DNA of 40,199 bases from Agrococcus sp. (GTDB lineage Bacteria; Actinomycetota; Actinomycetes; Actinomycetales; Microbacteriaceae): assembly GCA_031179215.1 (NCBI GenBank), contig JAPSIA010000013.1, positions 1-40,199 on the forward strand, in the 5' to 3' direction. The notes beneath the pieces are model-generated. The model worked only from the letters and a program-made list of their open reading frames with translations, ran no database searches and had not been told where the DNA came from. Shown one piece after another: positions 26,053 through 27,945 of this stretch. The translations under genes and the position numbers were made by a program. Within the stretch, counting starts at the first letter, position 1; every line of letters begins with the position of its first letter.

Positions 26053-26124
26053 TGCCCCTGGAGGGACTCGAACCCCCAACCAGCTCCTTAGGACGGAGAT
26101 GCTCTTCCATTGAGCTACAGAGGC
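26053..26124 (-). tRNA. tRNA-Arg (anticodon CCT)
   Basis: A 72-nt cloverleaf: acceptor GCCTCTG with CAGGGGC (G-U tolerated), GCTC/GAGC D-stem, anticodon loop GTCCTAA with anticodon CCT reading the rare arginine codon AGG, and GGGGG/CCCTC T-stem with TTCGAGT. The outermost base pair of the anticodon stem is a T-C mismatch. The CCA end is not encoded. Confidence 0.93.
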
Positions 26125-26200: not shown

Positions 26201-26968
26201 TCACGTGATGTCGTAGAAGACCGGGGCCGAGCCGCCGATGTGCACGCCTGCGACGACCGTGTTGAAGCCGGACCAGCCGCCGTGCACCGCGCGGCCGCCG
26301 CCGATGTAGATCGCGACGTGCGCACGGCCGGTGCCGCCGTCGGCGTAGTAGATGATGTCGCCGGGCGAGGCCGCCGACATGGGGACGGTCGGGCCGAGGC
26401 TGCCGAGGTTCGCCATGCCCGTGTAGGTGAGGCCGACCGCGGCGATCGCGCGGCGCACGAGCGCCGTGCAGTCCTGCGCCTGACCGACCTGCGCGAGCGC
26501 GGCGTTGGCGACGGTGCCGCCGGAGACGCCCGCGGAGGCGGCGCTCGACGACGAGGCGGACGACGACGAGGACGAGGTGCCCGCCCCCGAGCTCGCGGCT
26601 GCCGCCGCGGCGGCCTGCGCCTCAGCCTGCTGCTCGCGCTCGGCCTCGGCGGCCGCCTCGAGCTCGGCCCTGACCTGCTCGAGCTCCTCGGGCGTGGTGG
26701 CCTGCACCGCGAGCCGAGCGTCGCCCAGGCCGCTCTCGCCTGCCGTGACGACGCCGGAGACCGACTGCGCATCGCGTGCGACGAGCGCCGAGAGCGACTC
26801 CTGCGAGCCCGAGCCCGAACCGGATGCGAAGGCGGGCAGGGCGAGCGGCGTCGCGAGGGCTGCGGCGACGGCGATCACGCCGACCCGACGGGCGTTGCGC
26901 ACGACCGAAGCGCGCGTGAAGCGCTTCTTGCCGGGCTCGATGCCGGTCATCTCGGTAGAAGTCGTCAC
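26201..26968 (-). CDS. NlpC/P60-type secreted protein, divergent catalytic domain
   Basis: 255 aa, exported. Basic N-terminus, hydrophobic core VGVIAVAAALATPLALPAF and likely cleavage near residue 49. A short helical, Glu/Ala-rich segment (about 92-125) and a Ser-rich linker (126-150) lead to the NlpC/P60 domain. Cys167 (QDCTALV), His217 (AHVAIYIGGGRAVH) and His229 fill the catalytic positions. The usual PYxWGG segment before the cysteine is missing and DCSG is DCTA, so the active-site cleft differs from standard peptidoglycan endopeptidases. GTG 26968 is chosen because TTGGAG lies nine bases upstream; GTG 26974 is the alternative. Three 11-bp-spaced repeats lie upstream. Confidence 0.82.
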   Translation of the reverse strand: MTTSTEMTGIEPGKKRFTRASVVRNARRVGVIAVAAALATPLALPAFASGSGSGSQESLSALVARDAQSVSGVVTAGESGLGDARLAVQATTPEELEQVRAELEAAAEAEREQQAEAQAAAAAAASSGAGTSSSSSSASSSSAASAGVSGGTVANAALAQVGQAQDCTALVRRAIAAVGLTYTGMANLGSLGPTVPMSAASPGDIIYYADGGTGRAHVAIYIGGGRAVHGGWSGFNTVVAGVHIGGSAPVFYDIT

Positions 26969-27029
26969 AGTCACATGCTCCAAAGCTCTCGTTGCGTCGA
27001 TGCGCCGCCGGGGCGGCACGTCGACCCAC

Positions 27030-27056
27030 GTTACCAAATCGTTATCTGTTTGTCAC
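27030..27056 (-). promoter_or_regulatory. Triple GTNAC-type direct repeat upstream of the first NlpC/P60 gene (MtrA-like box)
   Basis: On the minus strand GTGAC, ATAAC and GTAAC follow each other with six bases between each (starts at 27056, 27045 and 27034), an exact 11-bp helical period. OmpR-class MtrA in actinobacteria recognises GTNAC-like direct repeats and controls cell-wall hydrolases. Identity of the regulator is inference. Confidence 0.5.
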
Positions 27057-27069
27057 CACGTTCGAAGGA

Positions 27070-27852
27070 TCAGCCGAACCGGCGGACCTCTGGCGTGCCG
27101 AAGGCCGCGACCATCGCCGAGTAGCTCGAGTACTTCACGGGCTTGCCGCTCGTCGCGGCGTGGATGATCTGGTTGCCGCCCGCGTAGATCGCGACGTGCC
27201 CGCTCCACACGAGCAGGTCGCCCGCCGCGACCTGCGAGGCGGGGACCGGGGTGCCGTAGCCCGCTTGCGCGTTCGAGGAGTGCGGCAGGTAGTGGCCGGC
27301 CTGGCCGTAGACCCACATCGTGAAGCCCGAGCAGTCGAAGCCGGTCGAGGGGCTCGCGCCGCCCCACACGTACGGGGCGCCGAGCTGCGACTGGGCGATG
27401 CCGACGATGCCGCCGTTGGCGGGCACGCTCACCGTGGCCGCCGCGGCGGCGGGAGCGCCTGCGGCCTCGCCCGACGCGTTCTCGGCGGCCGCCTCGCGAG
27501 CCTCGGCGAGCTCCGCCTGGCGCGCCTCCTCGGCCTCTGCGGCCGCGGCGCGGAGCGCTTCGAGCTCCTCGGCGGTCGTGCCGGAGATGCCCTCGCGGGC
27601 GATCGTCTCGACGCGCGCGTCGGAGGCGACCGTGACGGTCTGCGAGTTCTCGGCGATGACGCTCTGCAGCTCGGCCTCTGAGTACTGCGAGCCCTGCTGC
27701 GAGAAGGCCGCGGCGGGGAGCGAGAGCGCTCCCACGAGCGCGGCAGCGACGCACACGACGCCGACGCTCTTGGCGCCGCTGCGCAGCGACGCGCCGACGG
27801 GTCGCGCAGGGCGACGGGGCGAGACCTCGACGGCCGTGGTGTGCTGCTTCAA
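27070..27852 (-). CDS. NlpC/P60 family peptidoglycan endopeptidase
   Basis: 260-aa exported cell-wall hydrolase. A basic N-region and hydrophobic core (VGVVCVAAALVGALSLPAAAF) form the signal peptide. A helical Glu/Ala stretch (about 93-130) and Ala-rich linker precede a standard NlpC/P60 domain: APYVWGGASPSTGFDCSGF with Cys174, then SGHVAIYAGG with His219, and His231. It likely cuts D-Glu-DAP or similar bonds in stem peptides during growth or division. The start is uncertain. TTG 27852 is preferred because GGGGGA lies eight bases upstream and the N-region then matches the paralogue; GTG 27891 is possible. A GTNAC repeat lies upstream. Confidence 0.88.
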   Translation of the reverse strand: MKQHTTAVEVSPRRPARPVGASLRSGAKSVGVVCVAAALVGALSLPAAAFSQQGSQYSEAELQSVIAENSQTVTVASDARVETIAREGISGTTAEELEALRAAAAEAEEARQAELAEAREAAAENASGEAAGAPAAAAATVSVPANGGIVGIAQSQLGAPYVWGGASPSTGFDCSGFTMWVYGQAGHYLPHSSNAQAGYGTPVPASQVAAGDLLVWSGHVAIYAGGNQIIHAATSGKPVKYSSYSAMVAAFGTPEVRRFG

Positions 27853-27929
27853 GTCGGTGTTCCCCCAAGGACGTTCTGCGAGCCCCCGCACCGCGATGTG
27901 CAGGGCTGACCCGGGGAGACTAACCCACC

Positions 27930-27945
27930 GTTACCAATTCGTCAC
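27930..27945 (-). promoter_or_regulatory. GTNAC direct repeat upstream of the second NlpC/P60 gene (MtrA-like box)
   Basis: On the minus strand GTGAC and GTAAC are separated by GAATTG (six bases), then GGTGGG. The arrangement GTNAC-N6-GTAAC followed by GTGGG is shared with the repeat before the first NlpC/P60 gene. Confidence 0.5.

Follow-up and report, generated by a model that had tools for sequence, protein, structure and literature searches.

Candidate MtrA boxes built into the promoters of two NlpC/P60 peptidase genes of Agrococcus

The question raised by this locus is which regulator might read the short direct repeats that precede two NlpC/P60 peptidase genes of an Agrococcus sp., and how those repeats stand relative to the promoters. 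The stretch of DNA analysed (the window, 40,199 nucleotides) makes up contig C140 of a draft genome (2.56 Mb, 88% complete). The two genes form a tandem pair on the minus strand (Table 1), gene 2 first and then gene 1, and comparison of the two gave 34% identity over residues 4-231 (tblastn, E 4e-5). Among named organisms, gene 2 has its closest relatives in Agrococcus (74-80% identity, five loci), and matches to it at E <= 0.001 were found in 124 of 150 genomes of the family, its own genome included. A tRNA gene (26053-26124, minus strand) adjoins the pair, and a tRNA is also present in five of 20 NlpC loci scanned from other genomes of the family. The original prediction had described three repeats before gene 1 (GTGAC, ATAAC and GTAAC, with six-base gaps) and GTGAC-N6-GTAAC before gene 2, and both arrays are as described (on the minus strand, gene 1 has its repeats at 27056, 27045 and 27034, and gene 2 at 27945 and 27934), with repeat starts exactly 11 bp apart throughout. 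The GTGGG tail that was also said to be shared turned out not to be conserved, the corresponding tails of gene 1 in six Agrococcus loci being GTGGG, GTGGC, GTAGG, GTATG, GTAGG and GTAGC.

Table 1. Genes, repeats and putative promoter elements of the NlpC/P60 pair (positions in the window)
Feature	Position	Strand	Remarks
Gene 2, NlpC/P60 peptidase, 260 aa, TTG start	27070..27852	-	PF00877, 83.8 bits
Gene 1, NlpC/P60 peptidase, 257 aa, GTG start	26201..26974	-	Downstream paralogue; PF00877, 35.6 bits
Gene 2 first half-site, GTGAC	27941..27945	-	Putative -35 position; 6/6 Agrococcus
Gene 2 second half-site, GTAAC	27930..27934	-	Putative -35/-10 spacer
Gene 2 putative -10, TAGTCT	27917..27922	-	17 nt after GTGACG; TANNNT in same frame in 6/6 Agrococcus
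Gene 1 first half-site, GTGAC	27052..27056	-	Putative -35 position; ATGAC in 1/5 relatives
Gene 1 second half-site, ATAAC	27041..27045	-	Relatives: GTAAC in 3/5, ATAAC in 2/5
Gene 1 third repeat, GTAAC	27030..27034	-	Overlaps putative -10
Gene 1 putative -10, TAACGT	27028..27033	-	Identical in 6/6 Agrococcus

GTNAC-N6-GTNAC has a single occurrence in the 40-kb window against 0.20 expected, a count equalled in 19 of 100 shuffled sequences and thus not significant, so that the evidential weight rests on comparison with relatives. Across the whole draft genome there are 15 such sites against three for the reversed pattern, and with a 5-bp gap instead there are eight against one. The contrast is sharper when sites are required to have an A/T centre in one or both halves (7/15 at N6 versus 1/8 at N5); the other eight exact sites in the genome consist of GTCAC and GTGAC alone and may be there by chance. 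Among the neighbours of the 15 exact boxes are gene 2, an Rpf-type transglycosylase (PF06737), an M23 peptidase, a SpaA-like surface protein, secA and three solute-binding proteins; the remaining boxes are next to other genes or within open frames. Enrichment near rpf and other wall hydrolase genes, which had been proposed as a check, was found: three of the six hydrolase genes counted (two NlpC, one Rpf and three M23) adjoin an exact box (hypergeometric P ~3e-6 to 7e-6, assuming 2000-2500 genes), while 12 of the 15 boxes are not next to any of these genes. It should be noted that the three hydrolase families were chosen after the original prediction had named rpf and NlpC/P60. A box is present at both NlpC genes, at rpf (L004) and at one of the three M23 genes; for the second M23 gene, the available 1190 bp of sequence before the domain contain no box, and a contig end truncates the third, which is hence uninformative on this point. 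The rpf promoter of the same genome has a similar layout (GTTAT-N6-GTGAC-N7-TAACGT). Fifteen Rpf loci were found in 14 of the 150 family genomes, of which two (G000 and G119) have a perfect box and two (G049 and G014) a 9/10 box of similar appearance; the other 11 comprise five with no 9/10 match at all and six with unlike ones only. Separately, on contig C63 of the window's genome, two proteins that look by eye like lipoproteins (L008:1501-1516 and L009:1501-1516) are encoded about 4 kb apart, each preceded by CATCGTGAC-N6-GTGACC and then a third repeat, GTGACCCC; neither protein has a Pfam match.

Within Agrococcus both arrays are kept at all six aligned loci (the window and five others) and also in a seventh genome, G119. 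At gene 2 the mean pairwise identity among the six loci is 1.00 for the repeats, 0.89 for the spacers and 0.67 for the flanks, and at gene 1 the corresponding values are 0.92, 0.88 and 0.64. The variation at the second half-site of gene 1, ATAAC or GTAAC, is the same A/G ambiguity as in the published MtrA half-site, and the putative -10 of gene 2 takes the forms TAGTCT, TAGTGT and TACTGT. At gene 1 the third repeat shares its TA with the putative -10 (TAACGT), and the invariance of its inner AAC suggests that it is a real third half-site.

The position of the repeats relative to the promoter was examined in upstream regions of NlpC/P60 genes from the wider family. Ninety regions (30 loci and 60 further stretches) were inspected first and seven from genomes without GlnR were added later; the genome that carries L026 is also G049 and was counted once, as Agrococcus. 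All counts that follow come from related genomes and hence are not independent. Among the 87 regions left when three from Agrococcus are taken from the 90, RTRAC-Nk-RTRAC is present in 16 regions at k=6 and in eight at k=17, with 0-4 regions at every other k from 0 to 30 and never more than three at any k on the reverse strand, giving periods of 11 and 22 bp. Where GTGAC or ATGAC is followed 11 bp on by RTNAC with at most one mismatch (45 sites, a set to which one region may contribute several sites and which takes in the three Agrococcus regions and the duplicates L119 and L145), TANNNT lies at offset 23 from the first base in 31 sites, compared with 0-2 at offsets 16-22 and 24-39. Among 93 regions (the 97 less three from Agrococcus and one duplicate), GTGAC-N18-TANNNT is present in 52, for which a Markov model gave a mean of 0.28 and a maximum of two in 50 runs. 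In this fixed frame the first repeat stands where a -35 is expected, the spacer to the -10 is 17 nt long and the second repeat lies inside it; from position and consensus the two hexamers are probably the working -35 and -10. The claim that these are tandem OmpR-class sites thus needs amending in one respect, since the repeats overlap the putative promoter elements and are not simply operators placed upstream of them.

When ATGAC is admitted as well, the core GTGAC/ATGAC-N18-TANNNT is found in 63 of the 93 distinct non-Agrococcus regions (62 genomes), leaving 30 without it. From these results the 63 core regions could be divided according to what accompanies the core: 25 have a full second half-site in the spacer, 24 have an upstream box, four have both and 18 have neither. 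The upstream box, GTTACC-N5-GT, precedes the first base of the core by 32 or 33 bp (three helical turns) in 24 regions (counted in the set of 97, which includes Agrococcus and the duplicate); L068, L099 and L109 are examples of family NlpC regions with this type of box. Such figures also bear on a rival account of the repeats, that these are constitutive sigma-A promoters (RTGACA-N17-TANNNT) in which the 11-bp repeat is incidental. It draws on the 38 of 63 core regions that have no full second half-site, including the 18 that have no upstream box as well. T is the sigma-A consensus base at the first position of the -35. Yet the first base in the core frame is never T (TTGAC-N18-TANNNT, 0/93 non-Agrococcus regions), the spacing peaks at 11 and 22 bp and nowhere else, and the second half-site of gene 2 is invariant in Agrococcus, which together make a plain promoter improbable. 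Base percentages taken from the aligned set are biased, as its members were selected for their likeness to GTGACA; the GTGAC and TTGAC counts are unaffected. A profile built from 25 non-Agrococcus promoters and searched over three Agrococcus genomes gave five matches at E up to 10, at modest values (E 0.0035 to 0.28), and all are at NlpC/P60 or rpf promoters: gene 2 in all three genomes, the gene 1 promoter in G049 and rpf in G000. In the other two genomes the gene 1 array is present but went unmatched by the profile, and rpf was likewise missed in two of the three. Further afield, among 26 more distant non-Agrococcus NlpC loci none has the GTGAC/ATGAC-N18-TANNNT core and four have a full RTNAC-N6-RTNAC pair.

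The reading that we favour, with a probability of roughly 0.75, is that the two NlpC/P60 promoters carry a built-in candidate MtrA box, whatever the sign of its effect; it is based on the repeats, their conservation and fixed frame, the presence of MtrA, the survival of the box in genomes without GlnR and its recurrence at rpf. MtrA had been named as the obvious candidate and it is still the best fit, as it is encoded in the genome and has a published 11-bp period and nlpC and rpf2 among its targets; what that proposal missed is that GlnR has the same published box. In Corynebacterium glutamicum the MtrA consensus is (A/G)TAACAATttn(A/G)TAACAAT with an 11-bp period, nlpC and rpf2 being among the targets (PMC3353115). 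The box before the Agrococcus genes has the form of the published sites, an 11-bp direct repeat with halves (A/G)TAAC or GTNAC. The mtrA gene was recognized in L020, which matches the MtrA equivalog model with 368 bits against a cut-off of 300 and has a segment, DTRLVNVHVQRLR, identical to M. tuberculosis MtrA (2gwr); the contig carrying it ends just past the gene. S. venezuelae MtrA binds its own promoter (PMC13189361), and in the window's genome no box was found in the 400 bp upstream of mtrA. A match to MtrA at E <= 1e-60 is present in 147 of the 150 family genomes. Two of the three genomes without one were looked at, G015 and G039 (one region each; G039 is 83% complete), and neither region has a box with a -10, a sample too small to carry weight. 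G015 is the smallest genome listed (0.93 Mb); it has neither an MtrA nor a GlnR match and has two NlpC matches, and the region inspected upstream of one of them is boxless. As six proteins with an OmpR-type DNA-binding domain were found in the genome of the window, another of them (L018, L022 or L021) might instead use the box. We take L018 to be RegX3-like and L022 to be the window regulator. The period, the consensus and the target set all agree with MtrA, and we regard a different OmpR-class protein as very unlikely, the least probable of the readings weighed here. A CRP-type site, with TGTGA as its first half, was also considered as a possible identity of the repeat.

GlnR deserves more attention, since its box in S. 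venezuelae is GTnAC-n6-GTnAC (PMC10704036) and the MtrA and GlnR motifs overlap; if these repeats were GlnR boxes, the peptidase genes would answer to nitrogen supply. The genome does encode a GlnR-like regulator, L019. We presume this identity from sequence features, no model being above its cut-off among the matches shown. MtrA, for its part, can reportedly bind GlnR boxes, as a Streptomyces study is said to have found. A GlnR array of the published a-b-a-b form does occur in this genome, about 65 bp before the likely start of glnA on contig C3 (GTAAC-N6-GAAAC-N6-GTCAC-N6-GCAAC, L167:1087-1124), and the NlpC arrays differ from it: at the Agrococcus loci they have no GaAAC b-site and their second halves are GTAAC or ATAAC. 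Eight family genomes have no GlnR match at E 1e-30; seven of these have MtrA and six of the seven have NlpC/P60 genes, which are members of the NlpC/P60 family and need not be orthologues of gene 2. Five of the six keep box and -10 (a full box in G051 and G121, which are of one genus, and a box with GTNAT as its second half in G100, G136 and G088), while in G005 box and -10 are not kept. Because the glnA array is distinct and the box persists in genomes without GlnR, GlnR is disfavoured as the regulator of the NlpC promoters, and we hold it to be about as improbable as the plain sigma-A promoter. It may be mentioned that in G100 about 1.2 kb separates two NlpC/P60 genes (L119:250-288 and L151:583-621) and that, as in the Agrococcus pair, both have a box of their own with a -10 in the same frame.

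If the box is indeed bound by MtrA, the layout suggests how it could act. The first half-site (RTGAC) would double as the -35 element, and the second (RTAAC), 11 bp on, would lie within the spacer, with the -10 (TANNNT) 7 nt past the box. A dimer of MtrA~P would bind both half-sites in tandem and so cover the -35 and the spacer, and at gene 1 the third half-site would extend this cover over the -10. MtrA~P bound in this way would block RNA polymerase and keep transcription of the wall hydrolase genes low. As the boxes cover -35 to about -20, and at gene 1 the -10 too, we infer that repression is slightly likelier than activation. In C. glutamicum MtrA represses nlpC (PMC9960051) and MtrA sites near the -10 accompany repression (PMC3353115), and in Dietzia hydrolase genes are up in an mtrAB mutant at pH 10 (PMC9602371). 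However, MtrA activates some targets in M. tuberculosis and Streptomyces, and so the sign here could be the opposite, with MtrA~P acting on the same box as a class II activator that offsets a weak -35 (GTGACA and not TTGACA). The fixed frame between box and -10 would suit such an activator. So would the upstream GTTACC-N5-GT box of 24 of the 97 regions, which lies near where S. coelicolor has the activating site whiI-a (-69 to -53; PMC5650626). Two further reports point the same way: overproduced active MtrA raises ripA in mycobacteria (PMC6265350), and a site at -34 in S. venezuelae was read as activating (PMC13189361). Set against this are the cover of the boxes from -35 to about -20, the third repeat of gene 1 over the putative -10 and the repression of nlpC by MtrA in C. 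glutamicum (PMC9960051), and activation takes somewhat less than half of the probability that we give to an MtrA box. A PhoB-like class II geometry was also considered for the promoter layout and given no evidential weight.

The regulator, the motif and the class of target are already known, and it is the promoter layout that is the distinctive part. The C. glutamicum MtrA sites (at nlpC, mepA and rpf2) are alike in the 11-bp direct repeat, the (A/G)TAAC halves and the nlpC and rpf targets (PMC3353115); unlike them, the Agrococcus promoters have GTGAC as first half-site at the -35 position and a fixed 18-nt gap to TANNNT. C. glutamicum nlpC also has a c-di-AMP riboswitch (PMC9960051), whereas a search with Rfam for this element (ydaO) at the gathering threshold found none in the window or in the loci of 20 relatives, the only matches being to tRNA. 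In S. coelicolor the MtrA sites at bldD and whiI are likewise short direct repeats, five bases apart, some of which overlap the -35 or -10 (PMC5650626); the targets described for them are developmental, whereas the Agrococcus sites are at wall hydrolase genes and in one fixed promoter frame. The M. tuberculosis regulon (ripA, rpfA-E) shares the wall hydrolase and rpf targets and a GTnAC-like repeat (PMC6265350), but that motif is described as a degenerate repeat and ripA rises with active MtrA. The actinomycete GlnR boxes resemble the arrays, in S. venezuelae, in sequence and in their 11-bp period (PMC10704036), and differ in having GaAAC b-sites (the S. coelicolor form, and that at glnA here) and in serving nitrogen genes. 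In Firmicutes WalRK similarly places wall hydrolases such as CwlO and LytE under two-component control (PMC7299342) and differs in being another regulator. By title or the start of the abstract, and with subscription literature thinly covered, our search returned no paper on wall hydrolase promoters in which the -35 is merged with an MtrA box, nor, by title, any study of MtrA sites in the family to which Agrococcus belongs.

The more general proposal, which we put forward tentatively and at rather less than even odds, is that the family uses a composite wall hydrolase promoter, RTGACA-N17-TANNNT, whose -35, with R and never T as its first base, has been turned into an MtrA half-site; the partner site would lie either 11 bp downstream, within the spacer, or 32-33 bp upstream as a separate box. 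For the sign of MtrA action, a natural comparison is between the regions that have the upstream box (24) and those that have a full half-site in the spacer (25), four regions having both. With the candidate boxes, a control of wall hydrolases by MtrA that is known from corynebacteria, mycobacteria and streptomycetes would extend to the Agrococcus family and, if the composite promoter is true, MtrA would repress or activate according to which partner site a lineage keeps.
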